Below, one piece after another: positions 4,236 through 23,084 of a stretch of 38,038 nucleotides of DNA. Made by a program: the position numbers and the translations under genes. The number at the start of each line of letters is the position of its first letter. The stretch's first letter is position 1. The stretch is from Balneolales bacterium (GTDB lineage Bacteria > Bacteroidota > Rhodothermia > Balneolales > Natronogracilivirgulaceae), in contig SLJN01000395.1 in the NCBI GenBank assembly GCA_007135115.1, forward strand, positions 1 through 38,038, given 5' to 3'. The notes under the pieces are model-generated. The model was given only the letters and a program-made list of their open reading frames with translations. It was not told the origin of the DNA and made no database searches.

Positions 4236-4634
4236 ATGGACAAAGTAAAAAAAACCGAAGAAGAATGGGCCAAAGAATTAACCCCGGAGCAATATCGTAT
4301 TTTGCGCCAAAAAGGTACAGAACGGGCATTTACCGGTGAATATAACGAATCCCCCGGAAAAGGAGTTTACCGGTGTGCAGGTTGCGGCAACCCCCTGTTT
4401 CACTCCGATACTAAATACAACTCCGGATCCGGCTGGCCGAGCTTTTACGCCCCCTATGATCCCGAACATGTTGATGAAGAAGAGGATCACTCATTTGCAA
4501 TGGTGCGCACGGAAGTGCTGTGTTCAAAATGTGACGGACACCTCGGTCACGTTTTTAATGATGGCCCTCAGCCTACCGGCCTTCGTTATTGCGTAAACTC
4601 TGCATCTTTAAAATTCGACCCGGATGAAAGCTGA
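4236..4634 (+). CDS. msrB: Peptide-methionine (R)-S-oxide reductase MsrB
   Basis: Zn motifs CAGC and CSKC, '[10 protein letters not shown]', '[25 protein letters not shown]' with the catalytic Cys in RYCVNS. Confidence 0.96.
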
Positions 4635-5519: not shown

Positions 5520-6380
5520 CTATTCAAGTTCCTGGCAAGCTACCAGATCGTCGCCCATCAGGCCATCATCATATACTCTTACATGTATTTCATCGGCCTG
5601 AAAGAGTCTGACATCAACTTCGGCTTCTGCTGAAGCACTATGCTCCTCTTCTTCGGTTTCCATTTCAGGATAGTCTTCTTCCTGGCCGATAAGATCACCG
5701 GGGTCGTCGCAAGAGTCACGATAAATGCCCCACTGGTAGGATTCTTCTTCGGCAAGCTCATCAAGACTGATATCTGCGACGAACATTTCATCCGGAGCGA
5801 AACCTTCTACTTCGATGCTACCTTCGACATCTTCGTAGTCTTCGGTGCCTTCGAGATCCGCGCTGAATTCGACATCCTGTTTTTCAACATCGACATCGAG
5901 AACCGACATATTGGGTGCCGCTCTTAGCTCATCGCCATCTTCCAGGATCAACTGAAAAAACAGTTCATCCCGATTTTCGAAGGCATCAGCCAATATTTCA
6001 ACATCTACTTCGGCGCTGCTGCTGTTGGCAGAAATCGTGACCGAAGTTGATGCCAATTCAAAATGCTCACCTTCTACGGCTTCGGACGCATCTTCATTAA
6101 CAGACACCGAAACGGATCTGTCTGAATCAGCATGAGCTCCGATTAGTTGAACTTCATAACTGTGAACTTCACTTTCCTCCTGATCCGCATCAAGGGTGAT
6201 GCCATCAGACAAAGATGAAGTTGAACGATCCGGCGGAGCCCACTCGACCTGGTTCGCTTCGCTCAGGTCAAAATCCTGCTCTTCAAAACACCCCCACATC
6301 ACCAGCGGAAGAATAAGAAGAGCTCCAAACTTTAGTACATTTCTATGTTTCATAAACTTCAAATAATTTCTTGGTTCCAA
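5520..6380 (-). CDS. SusCD-associated lipoprotein with a Calx-beta/DUF4843-like region and a C-terminal Cu/Zn-SOD-like domain (triad 1)
   Basis: Lipobox 'LVMWGC'; 'EDASEAVEGEHFELASTSVTISANSSSAEVDVEIL' region; C-terminal 117 aa homologous to 11738-12595. Confidence 0.7.
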   Translation of the reverse strand: MEPRNYLKFMKHRNVLKFGALLILPLVMWGCFEEQDFDLSEANQVEWAPPDRSTSSLSDGITLDADQEESEVHSYEVQLIGAHADSDRSVSVSVNEDASEAVEGEHFELASTSVTISANSSSAEVDVEILADAFENRDELFFQLILEDGDELRAAPNMSVLDVDVEKQDVEFSADLEGTEDYEDVEGSIEVEGFAPDEMFVADISLDELAEEESYQWGIYRDSCDDPGDLIGQEEDYPEMETEEEEHSASAEAEVDVRLFQADEIHVRVYDDGLMGDDLVACQELE

Positions 6381-6461: not shown

Positions 6462-7871
6462 TCAGTATCCAGGGTTGTCATCGAGATCCGGGTTATTTTC
6501 CACTTCGCTGGATGGCAATGTTGACAGCACCCGGAAATCATCGTAGGGTAATGTCGGAAGTCCATCCTGCTTCGTGATATCCATAGCGCGGCGCTTCAGG
6601 TCATAGAATCGATGTCCTTCGAAGTTGAGTTCTCGCCGACGCTCAGGGAAAACCTCATCTACAATGAAATCCACAGCATCGTTGTACCCGCTAACCGGAC
6701 CAATACCGCGTGCTTCCCGTACGGTATTGAGTGCATCATGTGCGTCATCAAAATTGCCCAATTCAGCATGAGCTTCTGCTTTGATGAGATACATTTCCGG
6801 AACGCGGATCAAAGGAACATTGTCATCGAATGCACCAGTGCTGCAATTCCACTTCAGGGTGTACCAGTAGCCATCCGTATGTTCGGCAAACAGGTTAAAT
6901 CTCCAGTCATCTTCATCGAAGAGATCCAGCAGATTTTGTGAAGGAATCACATCATGCCAGTGCTGTGGATTGGTATACGGGCACAAACCAACGTTGGAAC
7001 CAAGACTTTCCTCAACCGGGTCGATATTCAATTCCATAATGGACTCTTCATTCGGCGTCTCGGAAAACGGGTTTCCGTCGGTGAATGCAGATTCCTCAGT
7101 AATGAGATCGGCATCGGTTTCGGCAAGCGCAATTTCAGCATGATCAACAGCTGCCTGCCAGTTTTCCAGATACAGGTTGATCCTGGCAAGAAGCCCGTGA
7201 GCTCCGGCATAATTTGCGAAGTATACCCCGCGATCATCGTCTGCAAGTTGTTCGGCGGCGTACTCTAAATCATCCAGAGCTTGCTGATACACCTCGGAAT
7301 TCGAACTTCGTGCACGCAGGTCGGCCTGATCCCGGTCGCGAGTAGGCTCTGTGCGGATAATGGCACTTTGCGTCCAACCATCTACTTCTCTTCCGGGCTC
7401 GTAACCATAGGTTCGAGCAAGGTCGAAATAGGCAAACCCACGCTGAAAGTGAGACTCACCATCAAGGCGCTGGCGTACATCATCGGGCGCATCAACGGTT
7501 TCAATGCCGTCGATTACGTAATTGGCTTCGTTGATGGTGTTATAGACCGTATTCCAGAAGGTAATATGGGATCCCTGGGAGTTTACAGCCATACCATCGT
7601 ATCGCCCGGAGGTATTCGGATGCTGGTCGGTATTATCCGCCAATACATCAGGACCGAGCGTGATCTCCCGTCCATACCGCCATTCACTTTGAAGGCGGTT
7701 ATAGACAGAAGTCATAATTGCTTCAATCCCGTCGATGCTTTCCTGAGCAGTTTCAGGATCTACTTCGGTGGAAGGGTGGGTTTCCAGCAGGTCATCACAA
7801 CCCGCAATGAGAGCAACCCCCATCACGAAAAGACCTATTCTACTTAAGTATTTCCACATAATTTTGTACAT
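6462..7871 (-). CDS. RagB/SusD family outer membrane lipoprotein (triad 1)
   Basis: Lipobox 'IAGCDDLLETHP', 'SVYNRLQSEWRYGREITLGPDVLADN', 'RRRELNFEGHRFYDLKR' near the C-terminus. Confidence 0.93.
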   Translation of the reverse strand: MYKIMWKYLSRIGLFVMGVALIAGCDDLLETHPSTEVDPETAQESIDGIEAIMTSVYNRLQSEWRYGREITLGPDVLADNTDQHPNTSGRYDGMAVNSQGSHITFWNTVYNTINEANYVIDGIETVDAPDDVRQRLDGESHFQRGFAYFDLARTYGYEPGREVDGWTQSAIIRTEPTRDRDQADLRARSSNSEVYQQALDDLEYAAEQLADDDRGVYFANYAGAHGLLARINLYLENWQAAVDHAEIALAETDADLITEESAFTDGNPFSETPNEESIMELNIDPVEESLGSNVGLCPYTNPQHWHDVIPSQNLLDLFDEDDWRFNLFAEHTDGYWYTLKWNCSTGAFDDNVPLIRVPEMYLIKAEAHAELGNFDDAHDALNTVREARGIGPVSGYNDAVDFIVDEVFPERRRELNFEGHRFYDLKRRAMDITKQDGLPTLPYDDFRVLSTLPSSEVENNPDLDDNPGY

Positions 7872-7903: not shown

Positions 7904-10900
7904 TTAGAAATTGATTTCAATTCCGCCTTCCAGAGTACGCGGTTGCGGAAAATAGGTTTGTCCACGATCGAAAACCTCCGGATCAAGCCCGGGGTACTCC
8001 GTCCAGGTAACCATGTTTTCGCTTTGTACGAAGACGGTAGCCGCGCCTAAGCCCAACCTGTTAGCGAGTTCTGCTGGCAAGGCGTAGTTCAGCTGTACGT
8101 TTTTCAACCGGATGTAGGAACCATCAAACAGTCGGCGGTCGGACCATGCGTTGTGATCGGTTCCACCAGGAAATGCACCCTGATTGTAGGCTTTCGGGAT
8201 ATCGGTAACCTGACCGGGCTCGGTCCATCGATTCAGCATATCCGGCGAAAGTACCCGACCACGGTGTGGTGCGAGGTGGAAGTTTGAATACTGCTCATCA
8301 AGGATGGTGCTGCCGTATTCATACTGGAAGAGAATATCCAGTGATACCGGTCCGTAGGAGAACTCATTACTCCATCCGCCGTAGTAATCCGGCATCATAC
8401 TGCCGGCAGCGAAATAGTCAGCTGTTCCAACAGAATAGGTCAGTTCACCATTTTGATCATACCAGAGTGCCCGGCCGTCAGCGGGGTTAACACCGGCATA
8501 ATTTCGAACCCACCATTGATGACGCTCATCACCGACGATGATTCTTGAAGCTGCTACGTTGGGGTCACTCATCCACTCCTGCTCACCTTCAAGCTCCAGT
8601 ACTTCACTTTGCTGGAAAGTGATGTTAAAGTCACTGGCCCACATGAACCGGCCGGCGTCAACAAGTACACCACCAACTTCAATTTCTATACCTTCATTAC
8701 GTACGATTCCGACATTTTCCATAATGTCGCTGAATCCACTATCCGAAGGCAACCAGCTTTCAAGCAGCAACTGCTCATTATCGGTTCGGTAGACACCGAC
8801 ATTACCGTAAAGCCGGTTACCTAAAAAAGCGAAGTCAACAGCCAGGTCGGTAGTCGCGGCCTGCTCCCAGCTTAACATGGCATTACCCAACTGCTGTGGA
8901 CGCAATCCGGTATTTCCCATATAAGTTCCGCCGGAACCGAACAGAGCTATTGAAGCGAAGTCACCGATATCGGCATTACCAGTAATACCATAGCTCACTC
9001 TCGGGCGAAGTTCATCCAACCAGCCGACATCCTGCATGAAATCTTCACGAGCGACATCCCAGGCAAGAGCACCAGAGTAGAACATTCCCCAGCGCTGATC
9101 TCCTCCGAATCGGGAGTGCCCGTCATAGCGCAGGTTTACGCTACCAAAATAGCGACGGTCGTAATTATACTGAAGTCTGGTAAAACCACCTGCAGTAGTG
9201 TATTCACTTGTTCTACCAGCTACGGCACTTGCCACACCGGCAAGGTTGAGCTGACCTAAAAGCGGGTTGGGAAGTTCTTCACCAGTAGCCGAATGGAAAT
9301 TGTAATCACGGTGACGATATTCTACACCAGCAAGTGCATTGAAGTTATGAACATCATCAAAGGTTTGACCGTAATCAGCTACAAAGTTACCGCTGTAGTT
9401 CTCGGTTTCTCTTGTTCGCTCCAATACTGATCCGCCATAAGCACCATATCGTGGAATGCTCGGATTGTTGTACCGGCGATCTCTTGACATGCGATAGTCA
9501 ACATTTAACTGTGCACGCACATCAAGATTTGGAGTTACCCTGTAGGTACTTGCAAGGTTGGAAACCAACTGAAATTCCCGGCCTACACGCTCTTCTTCGT
9601 GTAGCAACTGAACAACATTATAGATAGCACCCGGCACATCCTGTGTATAGGTACCATCATCTTCATAAATGGGGAAGGTATGACGAAGGGTAACCCCACC
9701 GTGAAACGGGCTGTTAATCCAGTTTCCACCGGTCTCTGCCTGACCGTTCATAACCGAACGGGAAAGACTGAGATTCGTTTCAAATGAAAGGCGATCGGAG
9801 GCTTCATGTTCAACATTTGAACGCAAAGTCATTCGATCATAATAGGAACTGTAAAAAGTTCCCTGATGATCTTCATATCCACCCGAGACAAAGAATCGAG
9901 TAGTCTCAGTTCCCCCCTGGGCAGAGAGGCTGTACCGCTGATTATAACCCGGCCGGGTCATTCCACCGAACCAGTCATAAGTTTGCACATCATCTACGGA
10001 TTCGGCACCAGGAGAACGATATGTCTCGAAAGCACTTTGCCTTGCGGATTCAATATCCTGGCCGAGGTCTCGTGCACGGTTTTCGTAGGCTTCCATCATA
10101 AAATTCACGAAATCCGGGCCTTCCATATAATCATACTCGCGATGGAGCTGATGGACACCGCCCCTTACACTTGCTGTAAAGTTCGTTACGCCTTCCTGGC
10201 CGCGACGGGTAGTAATCAGAACCACTCCGTTGGCACCCTGGGCGCCATAAATAGCAGTTGCCTCGGCGTCGCGAAGTACCTCAATGGATTCAATATCGGA
10301 AGGGTTAATACCACCGAGAACATTTGAATTGGTCGTGGCTATGTTAGACCGGAAATAATCTTCAATTGGCACTCCATCGACAATAAATAGCGGAGAGTTA
10401 CCACTATGAATAGATCCTATACCTCGAATACGGATATTGGCTGCCGCTCCTGGTTGACCACTGGAACCGACAAACTGGGTTCCGGCAGATTGCCCCTGCA
10501 GAGCCTGATCCGGGGTCTGAATGGTTCTTCCGCGAACACGTTCGCCACGTACAGAAGAAATCGCCCCGGTAACTTCTCGCCGCTCACGAATTCCATATCC
10601 GGTAACAACCAACTCATCAAGTCCAAGAGCATCGGGGACAAGCTCAACATTGAGTGTTGTCATTTCACCATCTGTAATGTCAACAGATCTTTCCTGCTCT
10701 CTGTAACCAACAAATGAGAAGATTACGGAATAACTGCCGGGTTCAAGACCTGTTAGTTCATAATTACCCTCAGCATCGGAAGTAGTACCGACCTCGAGAG
10801 CATCTATTCGAACAGTTGCCCCCGGCAACTCCTCACCATCATCTGCATCATAAATAGTTCCTTGTACACCGGTTTGCTGTGCAAACGCAGTAAAAGGCAC

Positions 10901-10951
10901 TATTATGAACAAAGCGAGTACTACAAGGAGGCTTGTAACCTTTTGTAACAT
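7904..10951 (-). CDS. SusC/RagA family TonB-linked outer membrane protein (triad 1)
   Basis: CarboxypepD_reg-like N-terminus '[20 protein letters not shown]', '[22 protein letters not shown]', plug '[21 protein letters not shown]', '[33 protein letters not shown]'. Confidence 0.96.
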   Translation of the reverse strand: [1015 protein letters not shown]

Positions 10952-11737: not shown

Positions 11738-12595
11738 TTATTCAAGCTCCTGGCATGCGACCAGATCATCACCCAGAAATCCATCGTCGAATACTTGAAC
11801 ATGGATTTCATCATCTTGATATAACCGGACGTCTACTTCCGTATCGACAGAAGCACTGTTTTCGTCTTCACCGGTTTCAAGGTTGGGATAGTCTCCTTCG
11901 TCGCCTACCACGCCGTCTTCTGAATCACAGTCACCATAGAAGACACCCCATGAGTAGGTTTCTTCTTCTGCGAGGTCACTGAGATTGATTTCAGCGGCAA
12001 ACATTTCATCAGCAGTATTACCCTGAATGTCTACGCTACCGCTTACATCTTCGTAATCCTCAGTTCCCTCAAGTTCAGCACTGAAAGAAACCTCGTCTTT
12101 ACTCATGTAGATCGTAAAGTAGCTGTAGTTGGCCGCAGCTTCCAGATCATCACTGTCTTCAAGCTCCAGAACTAACGTTTCTTCCTGATCATTTTCGAAA
12201 TTATCCGAGAGGATTTCGATTTCGATTTCTCCGAAGCTTTCGTTAGCCGGTATGACGGCAGGACTATCGGTGTGCAGTTCAAAATGAACACCCTCTTCTG
12301 CAGTTGTTTCCTCACCGCCACCTGATTCGGTTATGGTGAAGTTTACATCCCGGTCGTCACCACTTTGTCCGGAAACCAGACTCAAGCCGACTTCGTGGTC
12401 AATGGCTTCTTCTGAATCCGGATTCATAGTGACCGTTTCGGTCCAACCCTGGCCAATATGAGTCTCAGAGAACTTCACTTGCGGTGGACCGTCATACGTT
12501 TCATCGCCGTCATCGAAGCATCCTGTTACCAGCAACGCAAGAATAACGGTTGAAAATAATGGCGTTAGAGTTTTTGCTTTAATCATGCTATGCAT
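11738..12595 (-). CDS. SusCD-associated lipoprotein, paralog of 5520-6380, with C-terminal Cu/Zn-SOD-like domain (triad 2)
   Basis: Lipobox 'LLVTGC'; C-terminal 117 aa aligns ungapped with 5520-6380 (about 73/117 identical, hand count). Confidence 0.72.
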   Translation of the reverse strand: MHSMIKAKTLTPLFSTVILALLVTGCFDDGDETYDGPPQVKFSETHIGQGWTETVTMNPDSEEAIDHEVGLSLVSGQSGDDRDVNFTITESGGGEETTAEEGVHFELHTDSPAVIPANESFGEIEIEILSDNFENDQEETLVLELEDSDDLEAAANYSYFTIYMSKDEVSFSAELEGTEDYEDVSGSVDIQGNTADEMFAAEINLSDLAEEETYSWGVFYGDCDSEDGVVGDEGDYPNLETGEDENSASVDTEVDVRLYQDDEIHVQVFDDGFLGDDLVACQELE

Positions 12596-12601
12596 TGCGT
12601 A

Positions 12602-14062
12602 TTAATATTCAGGATTTTGCTGAATTTCAGGATTGTTTTCCTCTTCGGTTTCCGGAATCGGAGCGATGACTCGGAAGTCATCATACGGAACCGGACTTTC
12701 TCCTTCAGCTTTGGGAATTTCGGCATATCGTCCTTCGCCTTCTCCACCTCTTCTCTTGAGATCAAAGAATCGGTGTCCTTCAAAAGCGAATTCGCGACGA
12801 CGTTCGTCCATAATCTCATCGATTGCTTCATCATAAGAGCTGGTGCTGGTTTCATAACCTCCACGAGCTTCCTGTACAGCGTTCAGGTAATCCACACCAC
12901 CCGATACATCGCCCTCTTCAACCAGGGCTTCTGCACGAATCAGATAGAGTTCGGGATATCTGATCAGCGGAGTGTTGTCAGTATGAGGACCGCGACTTTG
13001 ACTGTACTTGACAGTGAAGGTATGTCCGCCTTCTTCATCATACAGATCAAGTCGTACGTCATCTTCATCATAAAGCTCCATGAGATTATCAGCTGCCATC
13101 AAGTCGTGCCACTGATAAGGAAGAATAATCGGCGCAATGGCTTCATTCACACCGGGACTTTCTGTATCCGGATCAATGGAAAGCTCAAAAAGAGCTTCAT
13201 CGCTTGGATGCCCCTGAAAGTCACCCGCATATTCTTCCGGATCTACAAACTCAGCACCGGCAGCATTAATTGCATTTTCCGCGTGAGTAGCAGCCTCATC
13301 CCATTGTTCTGCGTAGAGATAAACTCTTGCCAACAATGCATGAGCCGCTTCATAGCTTACGTAATAGGGATCTCCGCGATCATTACCTTCGAGAAATTCG
13401 ATGGCATCAAGCAAATCCTGCTCGATTTGATCGTAGATTTCCTGAGTCGTAGCTCGCGGACGTTCGTCAGCTGCTTCAGCATCTTCGGTTGGCTCTGTTC
13501 TCAGTGGTACTGAAAGACCTTCCTGCTCACCGGACTCATCATACATAGGATGATTCGGCTCGTAGCCATACGTCCGTGCGAAATCATGATAGGCATACGC
13601 TCTGTTGAAAAGAGCTTCACCGATCAACATTTCAGCTCGGGCAAGATCAAATCCGTCATCGTCGCCTTCCTCATCGATCATCTCGTTGAGAGACTGGACG
13701 ACGGTATTACTTTCATTGATCAGGGTGTAACCGGTATTCCAGAAGTTGATATGTGCTCCGGTTGCATTAACGGCCTCACCGGAAAATCTTCCCGATGGGT
13801 CCGGATGCAAATAGGAGTTATCAGCCAGAATTTCCGGAGCGAGAATGAGCTGCTGTCCGTACCTGAATTCGCTCTGAAGGCGATTGTAGATGGAGGTAAC
13901 AACCGCATCTACTCCTTCCAGATCTTCAAGAGCCACTTCCGGCTCAACCTCTTCAACTGGTTCGGTATCCAACAGGTCATCGCAGCCTGTCAGATAACCG
14001 ACCATAAAGATTGCTATTAAAAAAGTTAAAATTCGATTCTGCATAAAATACTTAAACCTCAT
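12602..14062 (-). CDS. RagB/SusD family outer membrane lipoprotein (triad 2)
   Basis: Lipobox 'LTGCDDLLDTEP', 'SIYNRLQSEFRYGQQLILAPEILADNS', 'RRREFAFEGHRFFDLKRRG'. Starts at the base after the SusC stop; an alternative ATG is at 14044. Confidence 0.93.
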   Translation of the reverse strand: MRFKYFMQNRILTFLIAIFMVGYLTGCDDLLDTEPVEEVEPEVALEDLEGVDAVVTSIYNRLQSEFRYGQQLILAPEILADNSYLHPDPSGRFSGEAVNATGAHINFWNTGYTLINESNTVVQSLNEMIDEEGDDDGFDLARAEMLIGEALFNRAYAYHDFARTYGYEPNHPMYDESGEQEGLSVPLRTEPTEDAEAADERPRATTQEIYDQIEQDLLDAIEFLEGNDRGDPYYVSYEAAHALLARVYLYAEQWDEAATHAENAINAAGAEFVDPEEYAGDFQGHPSDEALFELSIDPDTESPGVNEAIAPIILPYQWHDLMAADNLMELYDEDDVRLDLYDEEGGHTFTVKYSQSRGPHTDNTPLIRYPELYLIRAEALVEEGDVSGGVDYLNAVQEARGGYETSTSSYDEAIDEIMDERRREFAFEGHRFFDLKRRGGEGEGRYAEIPKAEGESPVPYDDFRVIAPIPETEEENNPEIQQNPEY

Positions 14063-17000
14063 TTAGAAGTTGACTTCAATTCCGCCAAGGATTTGACGCG
14101 CTTGTGGATAGTTACCCTGGGTTCGCTCAACTGCTTCCGGGTCAATTCCGGAGAATTCAGACCAGGTGGCAAGGTTTTCACCCTGAGCAAATACACGTGC
14201 GCCACTTATGCCAATAGCTTCCACAAGTCTTGGTGGTACCTGATAACTCAGCGTAATATTCTTCAGGCGGATATAAGAACCGTCTTCGATATTACGGCTG
14301 GAAAGCTGTCGGTTACTGCCACCACCAGGGAATGTATTCTGGCTGTAGAGTCTTGGTACATCGGTTTCATCACCAGGTTCACTCCAAGCATTGTCCGGTA
14401 CATCAGCAACCATGTTTCGGTTACGTGAAGGATCTGCCAGGAAGAAAGCTACCGTGTGATTAAAGAGGTCAGCACCGTAGTCATACTGGAAAAAGATGTC
14501 GGCTTCAAAGTTGCCGAAGGTGAAGCTGTTAGCCCAGCCACCGTAGTAATCGGGAAGATAAGAGCCCAATACCGTATTATCAGAAGCTCCTGGGTTATAG
14601 GTGATCTCGCCATCTTCGTCATACCACATGGCACGGCCATTGGAAGAGTTTACACCTGCGTATTCAGGTCCCCACCATACATAGTACGGCTCACCTAAGC
14701 GAGTGTTCTGATCAATGGTTTCCTGGCCGTCTGCCAGTTCAACAATTTCATTATCAAGGAAACTGATATTGAATTCGGTATTCCAGACAAAATTACCGCG
14801 ATCTACTACGATACCGCCGATGTCGATTTCAATTCCGCGGTTTCGTACCGTTCCGACATTTTCTGTGATATCGTTATAACCACTGTCTCCCGGCAGAAAG
14901 GCATCAAGCAGTAAGTTTTCATTGTCTGTCTGATATACATCAACTTCACCGTAAAGTCTGTGGTCAAACAACGCCCAATCAATACCTAAATCAACAGTTC
15001 GGGCTTGCTCCCAACCAAGATCAGGATTACCGAGTTGTTGAGGCCTTACACCTGGGTTGGCCTCATAAGAGCCACCTTGACCGTAAAGGGTTCGGGAAGC
15101 AAAGTTATCGATATCGGCATTACCGGATATACCATAACTTACTCTGATTCGCATTTGATTGAGGGACTCAATGTCAAGAAAATCTTCCTGAGCAGCATCC
15201 CATGCCAATGCACCGGAGTAGAACAAGCCCCACTGGTTGTCGGCGCCGAATCTGGAAGAGCCGTCGTACCGGACGTTACCAGTTACGAAGTAACGCTGAT
15301 CGTAGTTATACTGCAACCTTGAGAATACACCACCCAACTTAAAGGAGGAAACGGTACTGTTTGCAGTCGTCGGGTTAGCAGTTAACGCCAGTGTGCTGAA
15401 TGCCGGACTGGGCAGACCTTCACCTCGGGTGTTAAATACAACCAGATCCTGCTCTCGATATTCACCACCCAGCGTACCGGTTATTGTGTGAACATCGTCA
15501 AATGTTTCACGATAGTTGAAGACCTGGTTAGTATTCCAGTTGGTAGTTCTGCGATTCGATTCGGTGATACCTCCACCATGATTCTGCAGATACTGGAGAA
15601 TACTTGGATTATCAAAACTACGATCGAATACATTTCGATGGTCAACACCCCAGGAGGAACGGAAGGAAAGATTATCGGTAAGCGTGAAGTCACCGGCAAT
15701 ATTACCAACAATACTTAGCGTATTACCGATTTGCTCACGCTCCTCAAGTACCTGAAGGTTGTTATAACTAATACCACCTCGGATCTCCGGATTATAAGAT
15801 CCATCATCCAGAAAGATCGGGTCGTTCGGTCGTGTCAGAACACCACCGTGGAACGGACTATTAATAAAGTTTCCGCCTTCGGCAGCTCCTTCCTGAAGAC
15901 TGCGTGTAATAGATACATTGGTCTCCAAAGTAAAGAAATCAGAAAAATCATGATCCAGATTCGTTCTGAGGTTCAGGCGGTTGTGGTTGGTTCCTACAAC
16001 AGATCCTTCGTGGTTCAGGTATCCACCTGAGATGAAAAACCTGGTGTTATCCGAACCACCTTGTGCTGAAGCCTGAACGCGACTAACGATACCACTTTGC
16101 AACATGGCATCCTGCCAGTCATAGGTTTCAGCTTCAGAAGGATCCGCTACACCTAATCCGTAGTCATCGAGCACGTCTTGGCGGGCCGTTTCGGGATCAT
16201 TGCCTAAATCCATAGCACGATTAGCGTAGGCTTCCTGCATGGTTTCAAGCCATTGTTCAGAGTCGAGCAGGTCATATCGATCAACTTGCTCATTTACACC
16301 CAGCTGAGAGGATACCGTGAATTCGGTTTGATCATCATGACCGCGGCGGGTTGTGATTAAAATCACTCCGTTAGATCCCTGAGCTCCGTAAATAGCCGTT
16401 GCTTCGGCATCTTTCAGGATCTCCATGGACTCAATATCCGCGGGATTGATAGATGACAGGAAGTTTGCGGCACCGTGTGTAGATGTACCGAGATCATCGG
16501 GCCCTGAATTGTCCATCTGAACACCATCCACGATTACCAACGGATCGTTTCCTGCCGTGAGCGAGCCAAATCCGCGGATTCGAACTTGCTGAGCTGCACC
16601 GGGCTGACCACTCTGGCCAACAACCTGTACACCAGAACTTCGCCCCTGAAGTGCCTGGTCAGGACTTGAAATGCTTCGACCCCGGAAGTCCTCGCCTCGT
16701 ACAGAGGAAATGGAACCGGTCACCTCTCGTCGCTCCTGAACAGCATAACCGGTAACAACCAGTTCGTCGAGACCTAACTCTTCAGGACGGAGTTCAATTT
16801 CAAGTGAAGTCAATTGATCCTGGGTAATTTCTACCTCAGTCTCATAAGTTTCATAGCCGACAAATGTGACTCGTACTGTATATGTACCAGGTTCCACATT
16901 ATCGATCTCGAAATCACCTTCAGGACCGGTAGTTTGGCCTTGTTCCGTCTCTTGAATAAGGACGGTAGCACCTACCAGCTCTTCTTCGGTTTCCGAATCG

Positions 17001-17098
17001 ATAACAGTACCTTGGATCCCGGTTTGCGCTAACGCAAGACCAGGTAACAAAAATACAGCACACAGCAACGTCGCCATGTGTTTAACTTTTTGTAGCAT
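14063..17098 (-). CDS. SusC/RagA family TonB-linked outer membrane protein (triad 2)
   Basis: '[22 protein letters not shown]', '[22 protein letters not shown]', '[23 protein letters not shown]', '[19 protein letters not shown]'. Confidence 0.96.
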   Translation of the reverse strand: [1011 protein letters not shown]

Positions 17099-18412: not shown

Positions 18413-19741
18413 TTAGTTCCCATCATAAATGGGGCTCCAGGGGTCTTCCCAATCTTGGTCGAAATGTTCGTTACTGTTGATTTCACTATCAGCTATAGGG
18501 AAACATAGCCTGTTGCGGTCGGTTACATCGGGCATACGCTCGAATTCATCGTATGCCGGAACATTGTCTGTACCTTCCAACCCATCATCAATCCACCTAC
18601 GAAGGTCATTCATGAAACGACCTTCGAGCCAGAATTCTATTCTGCGTTCTTCAAGCAGGTGCCCCCAGGCTTCTTCTACATTTTCAGCAGACCGTTCCTC
18701 CAGAGGCTCGCCGCCTTCAGATTGTATATCTGTGCGAACCTCATTTATGATATCCATTGCTTCTTCCCAGTTACCATTTCGAAGTTCGGCTTCTGCCTCT
18801 ATCAGGCGCATTTCACGGCCGGTATTCATGTTAACATTATCCGCAACGCCGCTGAACTTCTGCTGCTCATACAACGGGAGGCCCTCAGGAGTATCATCGG
18901 TTTCACGATCTACCCAGCCGGCTCTTGGATCTCCGGTTTCTTCATAGTACTCCTCGTAAAATGAATTATACACGGTCCAGTCTCCCCATGGGTCATCAGC
19001 TCCCAGATCATACATGATGTTGTACTGATCCGACTCCGAAGACGTATAAACCGCCTGGATCGAAAAATCGTCGCTGACCTGATTTGCATAATCAACCGCT
19101 TCATCCCAACGATTTAATCCGGGGCCCAAAACCGAGGCTAAACCTGCATGTGCAGCTTCTACGATTTGCATTTCCCCTGCGGCCTCACCTACTTGTACCG
19201 CTTCTTCAAAGCGCTCTTTTGCACGCTCAAGATACACGTCATTACCGCCGAGATCTTCACTGCCGTCAATGACAGCCGTACACATGTTTTCACCCAGCAA
19301 TCGGTTGGCGTGGCCGGCCAGTTTCTTTGCCCGGGCATTATAAACATAGGATGAAGCCTCATCTTCCCCGAGTACTTCATCAAACCTTCGGGAGGCATCC
19401 TCAGCAACAAAACGTGCTTGTTGCGCTACATTCCAGGCATTATTATCCAGGGCATCACGCCGCATGTCGCCAACTCTTGGCGGAACTTTAGGACAACAAA
19501 AATTCCGACCTGAACGGGTTATCTGCTTCGCCGACTCCTCACTGTGATAAGCAAGCTGCCAAAGCGAAGTAGAAAGAGCAAAATTGGCACCTTCCACGAC
19601 GGAAGCGTGAGCGCCATCATCATCCAGGAATTCATCTTGTACAGGTCCCGGATTTGTCACTTCGAAGTCGCAAGAGCTCGTTACAAAAGCGACCCCGGCA
19701 ATTAACATAAATCGAGTAAATATCTTTACAGGCTTACGCAT
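18413..19741 (-). CDS. RagB/SusD family outer membrane lipoprotein (third pair)
   Basis: Lipobox 'FVTSSCDFEVTNPGPVQDEFLDD', C-terminal 'EEAWGHLLEERRIEFWLEGRFMNDLRRW'. Start moved from 19921 to 19741 (MRKPVKIF) for a proper signal peptide. Confidence 0.9.
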   Translation of the reverse strand: MRKPVKIFTRFMLIAGVAFVTSSCDFEVTNPGPVQDEFLDDDGAHASVVEGANFALSTSLWQLAYHSEESAKQITRSGRNFCCPKVPPRVGDMRRDALDNNAWNVAQQARFVAEDASRRFDEVLGEDEASSYVYNARAKKLAGHANRLLGENMCTAVIDGSEDLGGNDVYLERAKERFEEAVQVGEAAGEMQIVEAAHAGLASVLGPGLNRWDEAVDYANQVSDDFSIQAVYTSSESDQYNIMYDLGADDPWGDWTVYNSFYEEYYEETGDPRAGWVDRETDDTPEGLPLYEQQKFSGVADNVNMNTGREMRLIEAEAELRNGNWEEAMDIINEVRTDIQSEGGEPLEERSAENVEEAWGHLLEERRIEFWLEGRFMNDLRRWIDDGLEGTDNVPAYDEFERMPDVTDRNRLCFPIADSEINSNEHFDQDWEDPWSPIYDGN

Positions 19742-19782
19742 AGCACTATCAGTTTGGTTAAATAATCTCATGACATTCCAGG

Positions 19783-22638
19783 TTAGAATGTGACTCTTAA
19801 GGAACCGGTGAATCGCATTGGTGCAGGTGTGGTTTCGGGAATACCGGTAGTCAATGCCGTTAAACCAGCACGAGACCAGATCATCTCGGGATCGAATGAG
19901 GTAAAATCCTCGTGGGTCCACAATCTGATATTGCTTGCAGAAAAGCTTAAAGACCCGGCGAGATTACCCGGCATGAACGTATCTATCGGAATAGATAAAC
20001 TGATGTTTCTCAATTTGAGATGATCAGCAGGTTCCACCCATAAGCCACTTTCAAGATTTTCACCGAAACAGTGAGCACGATCAAATGCATTGACCTGACC
20101 AATGTTTGAGTGATCATCGGAATACTCACCATGAGGAACAACGGCATACACGTCATCACAGGAAGAAGCGCCGCTTCCGCGATCTACGTTATTCCACTGC
20201 GCATCCTGTGTGATGTAATGCCCGCCCTGGTATTCGAGATTGGCATCCAGCGTAATACCATAGGGAATGGTTATACCGGTTTGAAAACCAATAGTATGCG
20301 TAGGCATAATCGGCCCGAAAAAGGCATCTGTTTCAAACTCCGGATCTGCATATTCATCGGCGTTTACAACCTTAGTCCCACGCTGTACCGGAGCAGGATG
20401 TCCCTCAACAAAAGTGTTAAATGTTTCGCCGCCTGTATCCAGAATTTCGCTGTTGTTCGTAGCCAGACTGCCGCCCACAAACCAGTTAAATCGCTCTGTA
20501 CGGATTACATCAGCATCAACTTCAAGTTCAATCCCTTCATTTTTCAGCGATCCGATATTTTCCAACTGAGAACCCGTAAAGCCCTGGCTTGGAACCTGCG
20601 GCACATTAAATAGCGCATTTTCGGTATGCTGATTATAATAGGTGAAGTTGATGTTCACCATGTTATTCATAATGCTGCTTTCAAATCCGGCTTCAAATTC
20701 CTGGGATCTCTCAGGTCCGAGATCCGGATTACCGACGTTGGCCGGTAGAAAGGCAGACTGACCTTCAAAACTTCTCGGGTTCCAGGTACGCACGGCATCA
20801 AACGGTCCGGGAGCTGTTCCGGCCATACCATAGCCGGCCCGGAGACGAAGTTCACCGAGCGTTTCTTCAGGGAAGAAATCTTCGTCAGAGATCACATAAG
20901 ACCCACTGATTTTCGGATAAGGCTGAAGTCCGAGATCTTCACCGAAGGTACTATTCCCATCAACACGCAGGCCCATCGTAAGGTAGTACCGATCTCTGAA
21001 GTTTAAGGTGGTTTCACCAAAGACACCGGCATCTATGACGCGGGAACTACTGCTATTGACCAGCCTTGATGATGCACTACTGAGCGTATGTTCTCCGGGG
21101 CCCGGCAGTCCAAGGCCAAAGCCATCCAACATTTGCTCATTGGTGGTTACATTTTGTCCACCCCAATTGAAGCGGGTTTGGAAATCTTCACTTACCCGAA
21201 GGGTGTAGGTACCCACGTACTCAAACGAATAGGCTTGGTTCACCCAGTTCTGTTCACTTACGCTTCCCCCGCTTTCAAGGATAAAACCAAATGGGGTATC
21301 GTGCATTTGATCCGTCATAGCACGATCGAGTCCGAAAACGATTCGATTGTTGAAATCGGCAGAAGGATTGTACCGAAAGGTTAAACCGGTGTTCAACCTG
21401 GAATTGGTTTGATACATTTTGGCATCAAAAAGCTGGTTGAGCACCTCCGGATCATCAGATCCAACCGGGCCGGACGGCTGACGGAATGCGTTGAACTGGA
21501 TGCCATACAGGTTATTTCCGACATGAGTAATCGACATATCGTGATTGCTGTATGAGGTATTTAAATCCATAGAAAGGCTTTCCAATAAATCCAGCGTAAG
21601 GTTAGCTCGTATGGAATATCTTTGTTCATGATCGTTCGGATGCACGCCTTCCCCATCATCAAACAAACCGGAAACAAAGTATTCAACACCTTGCTGACCG
21701 CCACTGACCGAAAGGCTATACTCCTGCCCGTAAGCATTTCTCAAATAAGGATCCATGCTTAAATATGGACGTTCATCGGAGCCACCAAAAGCCTGAACAC
21801 TTTGAACCCGCTGGGTTGTATTAAAAGCCCATCTCGGCGCGCCGTCTTCACCTCGTTTGGTAAAAATCTGAATGACACCGGCCGCAGCTTCCGATCCGTA
21901 TAATGTCGTTGCCGAAGCTCCTCTTACGACCTCAAGCCGATCAATATCATTAGGATTTATGTCATTCAGCGGACTGGATGTTGACTGAGGACTCTGCCAA
22001 AACTCCGCTCCACCCGACTGATTCAACGGGTAGCTATCCGCTCCCTGGCGCACACCATCAATGTAGATCAAAGGTTGGTTACTTTGGGACATACTCACGT
22101 TACCGCGCAAGCGGATTGCAGCACCAGCGCCCATTGTTCCAGAGCCGGGGTTAACAGAAACTCCGGTTGCACGACCGGTCAGCATCTGATCAACATTGCG
22201 TACCGGCTCAGAAATTTCAGCCGTACTTATTTCAGAGATATTACTTCCCAGCTCTCGCTGACGTGCACCAATAGCTGCACCGGTTACTACAAGTTCATCC
22301 AACCCGGTCACGTCGGCCGTCAATGATATATCGACGCTTGCTTCTTCACCTTCCACAACATCCACAGTGGTTGTCGACTCCTGATAGCCAACAAAATTAA
22401 CAACCAGCGTATATGAATCTGCCGGAACATCGGTTATTTCAAAATAACCGTCGGCATCAGCGGATGCTCCGGTTCCAAGTTCTTCGATAAGAACTGTTGC
22501 TCCGGGAAGTGCTTCTTCCGTATCTGCATCCACAATATATCCTGAAATCGTACCCGCTGATGAAACCCCAGTGAGGCCCATCAACAGAAACATACACAAT
22601 ATAAATGAGGATAAAGCTGTCGTAGCTTTTTGAGACAT
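19783..22638 (-). CDS. SusC/RagA family TonB-dependent receptor (third pair)
   Basis: 'GTISGYIVDADTEEALPGATVLIEELGTG', 'LDELVVTGAAIGARQRELGSNISEI', 'AIRLRGNVSMSQSNQPLIYIDGVRQG', 'ATTLYGSEAAAGVIQIFTKRG'. Start set at MSQKATT (22638). Confidence 0.95.
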   Translation of the reverse strand: MSQKATTALSSFILCMFLLMGLTGVSSAGTISGYIVDADTEEALPGATVLIEELGTGASADADGYFEITDVPADSYTLVVNFVGYQESTTTVDVVEGEEASVDISLTADVTGLDELVVTGAAIGARQRELGSNISEISTAEISEPVRNVDQMLTGRATGVSVNPGSGTMGAGAAIRLRGNVSMSQSNQPLIYIDGVRQGADSYPLNQSGGAEFWQSPQSTSSPLNDINPNDIDRLEVVRGASATTLYGSEAAAGVIQIFTKRGEDGAPRWAFNTTQRVQSVQAFGGSDERPYLSMDPYLRNAYGQEYSLSVSGGQQGVEYFVSGLFDDGEGVHPNDHEQRYSIRANLTLDLLESLSMDLNTSYSNHDMSITHVGNNLYGIQFNAFRQPSGPVGSDDPEVLNQLFDAKMYQTNSRLNTGLTFRYNPSADFNNRIVFGLDRAMTDQMHDTPFGFILESGGSVSEQNWVNQAYSFEYVGTYTLRVSEDFQTRFNWGGQNVTTNEQMLDGFGLGLPGPGEHTLSSASSRLVNSSSSRVIDAGVFGETTLNFRDRYYLTMGLRVDGNSTFGEDLGLQPYPKISGSYVISDEDFFPEETLGELRLRAGYGMAGTAPGPFDAVRTWNPRSFEGQSAFLPANVGNPDLGPERSQEFEAGFESSIMNNMVNINFTYYNQHTENALFNVPQVPSQGFTGSQLENIGSLKNEGIELEVDADVIRTERFNWFVGGSLATNNSEILDTGGETFNTFVEGHPAPVQRGTKVVNADEYADPEFETDAFFGPIMPTHTIGFQTGITIPYGITLDANLEYQGGHYITQDAQWNNVDRGSGASSCDDVYAVVPHGEYSDDHSNIGQVNAFDRAHCFGENLESGLWVEPADHLKLRNISLSIPIDTFMPGNLAGSLSFSASNIRLWTHEDFTSFDPEMIWSRAGLTALTTGIPETTPAPMRFTGSLRVTF

Positions 22639-23084
22639 ATAACCTCCGTTTGGTTCATATTTAGAACTGCATTTACAGTTTATCTGCAACAGGCAAGATT
22701 GATTTACACAACATCATTTTACCAATGCCATCCTGATGCTATGAAAAGTTAACAATATGAACTCATTTGTCAATTTTTGTTTTAATCTGTAAATATTTAG
22801 GAATTTTACATTTCTATATTAATAATTATGAAAAACTTTATCGTTAGGGTAAGTATGATACCAGCTTGGTTAAATTATTTAGCCAGTACTCCGATTATGC
22901 AACTTTGATTCATTATTATATTCTGCAAGATTTGCAATTCTCTTACATTTAATCTTTACTCTCCTGATCTTGATTTAAACTAAACTATACTCTTGTACTT
23001 TGATACAGCGTAATTTCATCGCTTGTATCTCTATACCAGTAAATTCATTAGCCGAATTTGAGGGACATTTACTGCATATAAAAA

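Follow-up and report, generated by a model that had tools for sequence, protein, structure and literature searches.

Two SusC-SusD operons in a 38,038-nucleotide contig of a Balneolales bacterium (SLJN01000395.1, assembly GCA_007135115.1; the whole stretch is hereafter called the window) each carry, as their third gene directly after susD, a lipoprotein gene whose product ends in a domain predicted to adopt the barrel of Cu/Zn superoxide dismutase (SOD), with the copper-ligand histidines replaced. Our preferred reading, to which we assign a probability of about 0.6, is that of a surface lipoprotein at the SusE position whose C-terminal head, a repurposed and non-catalytic SOD/CHRD-like domain, assists the SusCD transporter. 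Metal-free SOD-like barrels (in chordin), microbial relatives of CHRD and lipoproteins made of a spacer and a variable head are each known separately; a search of open-licence literature turned up no case of the three combined in a SusCD operon.

Lipoprotein genes, spacer domain and distribution

Both operons lie on the minus strand. Operon A comprises a SusC-type TonB-dependent transporter (14063..17098), a SusD homologue (12602..14062; SusD_RagB, E 3e-26) and lipoprotein gene A (11738..12595), which encodes P0001 (P1; 285 aa) with a lipobox, a DUF4843/Calx-beta-like N-terminal domain and the SOD/CHRD-like C-terminal domain. Operon B consists of a SusC-type TonB-dependent transporter (7904..10951), a SusD homologue (6462..7871) and lipoprotein gene B (5520..6380), encoding P0002 (P2; 286 aa), a paralogue of the same architecture with 44% identity to P1 and its head at about 5523-5879. 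Five copies with the head are known, all in one genus: P1, P2, a third copy after a susD on another contig of the window's genome (L003) and two copies in the one same-genus genome (L006 and L007), each after susD. At E 0.01 per genome, neither the remaining relatives that were searched nor 395 further genomes drawn from the phylum yielded a head-bearing copy, and the fusion of the head to a SusCD lipoprotein therefore appears to be confined to one genus within the genomes searched.

The lipobox Cys26 of P1 (12518..12520, minus strand) is followed by the acidic stretch FDDGDE, and from this cysteine onward the five members read CFDDGDE, CFEEQDF, CFEDREF, CFEEQEF and CFEEHDY. The characterised export signals of Bacteroidota lipoproteins are acidic after the lipobox cysteine, with Ser, Gln or Lys at position +2 (PMC5080379); the five members share the acidity but have Phe at +2. 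The lipobox and the acidic residues that follow it suggest placement at the outer membrane, probably at the cell surface. By gene order, directly after susCD, the lipoprotein takes the place of SusE or an SGBP.

The N-terminal domain of P1 (residues ~39-165; 12101..12481, minus strand) would, as an Ig/Calx-beta-like domain, serve as a membrane-proximal spacer. The match to DUF4843 lies above the Pfam cut-off in P2 (E 1e-9) and below it in P1 (E 1.5e-6), the N-terminal half of P2 also gives weak matches to Calx-beta and to a BT_3987-like N-terminal domain, and in the AlphaFold2 (AF2) model built from two sequences the domain is unconfident (pLDDT <50). Related N-terminal domains occur after other susD genes of the lineage, either headless or, in ~450-aa proteins, joined to different C-termini. 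In two such lipoproteins (L150 and L151, on C218 and C16 of G000) the swapped C-termini consist of repeats that resemble, by eye, carboxypeptidase-regulatory domains. The arrangement is like that of the SusE/SusF-type lipoproteins, which bind glycans at the surface, and of the multidomain DUF1735 lipoproteins, which are encoded after susD and place an Ig-like spacer at the susE/F position in front of interchangeable C-termini (LamG3, F5/8 type C, GH18 and others; PMC11216935). A superoxide-dismutase-like head, not mentioned in the sections consulted, would join this set of C-termini.

Fold and relatives of the head

A preliminary description of this DNA had proposed an SOD fold for the last 117 aa of P1 and had read the Cu/Zn-SOD motif order from a translation that proved genuine, 11738-12091 of the minus strand encoding residues 169 (beginning at base 12091) to 285 and the stop. 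Alignment, profiles and models place the head at residues 167-285 (11741..12097, minus strand). An AF2 model based on 40 relatives and the two window sequences gave the head a pLDDT of 92.7 and a pTM of 0.85, and 47 of the best 50 Foldseek matches listed were Cu/Zn SODs, all with probability 1.00; the best was human SOD1 without loops IV and VII at E 9.7e-4, the only one of the matches listed below E 0.001, and the target TM reached 0.78 among them. Since the relatives could steer this model, a second one was made from the two window paralogues alone; its head had a pLDDT of about 64-85 and the same strands, and 49 of the best 50 matches listed were again Cu/Zn SODs, so that the fold assignment is independent of the relatives. 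At the level of predicted structure, residues 169-285 of P1 are confirmed as a Cu/Zn-SOD-type Greek-key barrel, and the proposed fold is upheld. The preliminary description had also named CHRD as an alternative that would refute SOD, an opposition that falls away: chordin CHRD domains are themselves SOD-like barrels without metal loops or metal, and bind sulfated glycosaminoglycans (PMC13382577).

Pfam annotation misses the head entirely. Searches of Pfam, NCBIfam and PDB sequences with the protein or the five-member profile returned no match for it, Pfam Sod_Cu (PF00080) and CHRD (PF07452) included; a WHxHxGxC DNA pattern gave only chance matches in unrelated frames of 196 relatives, and a first scan of genome contigs for relatives found none. 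An approximate 110-aa probe of the form WHVHxGxC ... VNVH ... ACG, used purely as bait and carrying no weight in any conclusion, retrieved real plasmid-borne proteins from Gemmatirosa, Thermomicrobium and Alicyclobacillus and, within the window's class, members of the window family at E 3e-8 and 5e-8. A degenerate DNA motif pattern applied to public genomes yielded 52 loci, 50 of them genuine (51 domains) and mostly from Gemmatimonadota; L109 and L117 were dropped as chance matches. The members from outside Gemmatimonadota include L094 (a Myxococcales MAG) and L113 (an Ectothiorhodospiraceae MAG). Two loci on contigs labelled Candidatus Kuenenia (L069 and L102) encode proteins nested among the Gemmatimonadota copies, possibly through mis-binning.

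These WHxH-GxC / VNxH / ACG proteins are mostly small, single-domain and exported, and they are annotated either not at all or, in looser relatives, as 'CHRD domain-containing protein'. They are homologous to the window head across the whole domain, with Trp, Gly, Tyr and Cys positions in common, and keep the three histidines, whereas the window head has lost them and is fused to a SusCD lipoprotein. The WHVH-type protein L094 is 35% identical to the window head over 122 aa (two-sequence E 8e-18), and a profile-profile comparison of the window family with the relatives by hhalign gave a probability of 98.8%, E 1.1e-16 and a score of 93 over 115 columns, against scores of at most 15.2 and probabilities of at most 0.9% for 30 column-shuffled profiles. 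The resemblance noticed earlier is thus beyond chance, and the head is, as judged from these alignments, a derived, degenerate relative of the family. The motif order described earlier holds overall; its equation of GDYPNL with GDLPNL is weak, most relatives having AYxPL and only L094, among those listed, having GDYP.

Direct comparison of the window family with SodC showed no significant similarity (hhalign probability 0.5%), and the kinship of the head with SOD is therefore seen through the intermediates and through structure. The profile of the relatives matched SodC with a probability of 69%, E 4.4e-5 and a score of 34 (shuffled controls, at most 17), and its matches in the PDB, although marginal (E 0.02 and weaker), were nearly all Cu/Zn SODs; in these alignments WHVH lined up with the HxH of the copper ligands. 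Pfam CHRD gave a weak match in 22 of 42 aligned sequences (best E 7.6e-5), and the nearest relatives fall between Pfam CHRD and Sod_Cu. The likeness of the head to Cu/Zn SOD (PF00080) consists in the barrel, the positions of Cys57 and Cys146 and, by way of the relatives, the register of the HxH strand; the closest structure is an SOD1 lacking loops IV and VII, and the head differs in having no copper-ligand set, zinc-loop histidines, active-site arginine or Pfam match. With the CHRD domain (PF07452), including that of human chordin, it appears to share an SOD-like barrel and missing metal loops, the absence of metal being in our case inferred from the residues, but chordin binds sulfated glycosaminoglycans and the window head is strongly acidic and has no CHRD match. 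Chordin CHRD is the closest precedent for a metal-free, glycan-binding barrel of SOD type, and microbial relatives of CHRD are known (Hyvonen 2003, as cited in PMC13382577). The window head would be a bacterial parallel to chordin, in which a metal-free barrel of this type became a glycan-binding component of an extracellular protein.

Lost metal-ligand residues and retained cysteine pair

The hallmarks of Cu/Zn SOD are the copper ligands His46, His48 and His120, His63 and the zinc ligands of loop IV, Arg143 and the disulfide Cys57-Cys146. In P1, the W-H-V-H-x-G-x-C position is occupied by W216-G-V-F-Y-G-D-C223 (11927..11950, minus strand), so that HxH falls on W-G-V-F (G217 and F219), as the preliminary description had placed it; the V-N-[VIL]-H position is occupied by I264-H-V-Q-V-F269-D-D (11783..11806, minus strand), with F269 as the equivalent of H120. 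Across P1, P2, L003, L006 and L007, the equivalents of H46 are G/G/S/A/G and those of H120 are F/Y/F/Y/Y (both replaced in 5/5), and those of H48 are F/Y/H/Y/Y (replaced in 4/5), L003 retaining a histidine (WSVH). The copper site, earlier described as dead, has therefore lost ligands in all five members. The Arg143 position is Leu in all five heads, the zinc-loop region contains one unconserved histidine in P2 and none in the other four, and the heads hold 0 to 2 histidines each, none conserved throughout.

Among the histidine-bearing relatives, the active-site arginine is found in 0 of 51, and 33 of the 51 have no histidine between the first cysteine and VNxH; the zinc site was therefore probably lost earlier than the copper ligands. 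In the tree, the window family, whose stem is long (2.29 changes per column), groups with the histidine-bearing L094 (97/88) inside a larger group that also includes L113 (99/92), and both the window family and L113 were flagged for unusual composition; because the window family nests with these histidine-bearing proteins, its histidine loss looks derived. The relatives suggest a stepwise route from an enzyme-type fold to a surface module, in which the arginine and conserved zinc-loop histidines would have been absent first and the copper-ligand histidines replaced afterwards, the fold and the cysteine pair being kept. The loss in the window family is notable, since nearly all AHIH/NVH-type lipoproteins examined elsewhere in the phylum keep these histidines. 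In L153-L163, also from elsewhere in the phylum, the lipoproteins have one to five tandem AHIH/NVH domains with the histidines kept. An apparently independent loss in the same domain family is seen in L040 (Gemmatirosa kalamazoonensis plasmid 2, 1237-1818), which reads WQLRRGQC and VRVGAS with the cysteine pair kept and belongs to a different histidine-bearing group of the tree (98/99). The neighbourhoods of four histidine-bearing relatives, inspected by eye, had no common copper-related theme; in the Thermomicrobium relative a cupredoxin gene lies next door, a single case.

As had been counted earlier, P1 and P2 contain exactly three cysteines each, that of the lipobox and a pair. The pair, in P1 Cys223 and Cys281 (11753..11755, minus strand), sits at the SOD disulfide positions, equivalent to Cys57 and Cys146, and the earlier assignment extends to all five heads, which retain it. 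The second cysteine, which the search pattern did not require, occurs in all 51 domains of the relatives, and 40 AHIH-type domains have neither cysteine. That the two are kept or missing together is compatible with a disulfide, presumed between Cys223 and Cys281. Double AHIH/NIH CHRD-like lipoproteins in relatives of the class (L045, L050, L054, L060 and others) have no such pair, and some of them carry, by eye, fasciclin-looking and cupredoxin-looking domains.

Proposed role of the head, and neighbouring genes

In all likelihood the head acts as a surface module without catalytic activity. A Cu/Zn superoxide dismutase, whether working or inactivated only recently, would share the barrel and the cysteine pair, but has next to no likelihood, because the copper ligands, the zinc-loop histidines and the active-site arginine are missing and the histidine-bearing relatives had already lost the arginine and, for the most part, the loop histidines. 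The loss would moreover be old rather than an ongoing decay, since synonymous sites (dS) are saturated in most comparisons, for which reason dN/dS ratios were not used, and the domain nevertheless stays constrained. Hardly more credible is another beta-sandwich, of Ig, CBM or Calx-beta-like type, that merely resembles SOD; it would agree with the missing Pfam match and the non-significant SodC comparison, but two models, one of them made without outside relatives, retrieved almost only Cu/Zn SODs among the matches listed. It is also unlikely, if to a much smaller degree, that the head still binds metal in another way, for example calcium by means of its acidic residues or, with low affinity, copper through residual groups. 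Asp and Glu make up 32-36% of the five heads (net charge, -37 to -41 per 118 aa), several of these acids are invariant and L003 keeps its WSVH histidine, but each head has at most two histidines, none of them conserved throughout, and the acidity may reflect an acidic proteome, SusD having 19-22% Asp and Glu. With such a charge, the head is also unlikely to bind sulfated glycans in the manner of chordin.

The remaining alternative gives the head no binding role at all: as a cap or spacer with a solely structural task, it would be a stable barrel, probably locked by the disulfide, by which the SusCD complex is kept in place or shielded. We regard this as possible though rather less than probable. 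Identity between the head of P1 and those of its four homologues is 56-64%, compared with 27-34% for the N-terminal domain, and the head is the most conserved part, also above SusD (48%) and SusC (50%) between operons A and B. This conservation speaks against a head that selects a ligand particular to its own operon, and suits a ligand class or a contact common to the operons, or plain structure; it agrees with a structural role almost as well as with binding. A cap would also be in keeping with the loss of the metal site without the gain of a new known binding motif, and with some sister lipoproteins of the lineage that are entirely headless. Against a cap stand the tighter constraint on the head relative to the N-terminal domain, and invariant residues, both acidic and aromatic (TEDYED, W216 and DY), that go beyond the apparent needs of a barrel core. 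The constraint also speaks for the preferred reading, in which the head would assist SusCD by (i) binding ligand, perhaps through an aromatic patch at the former copper site, or (ii) contacting the transporter. Trp216 and the two aromatics (Phe or Tyr) at the H48 and H120 positions suggest a putative binding patch; the proposal that the copper site was rebuilt as such a patch, making the SOD-type barrel a new kind of non-catalytic SusCD binding module, is tentative and, we think, somewhat doubtful. The significance of the fusion would be minor if the head proved to be structural only.

No carbohydrate-active gene was recognised beside either operon among the neighbours scanned. An MsrB-like gene, recognised by eye, adjoins operon B in the window (4236-4634) and lies likewise at 233-628 of L007, so that this neighbourhood is conserved in both same-genus genomes. 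The window also holds, at 18413-22689, a third SusC-SusD pair without an SOD-like lipoprotein, whose two ORFs overlap at 19783-19921, and its susD therefore probably starts downstream of the listed GTG.
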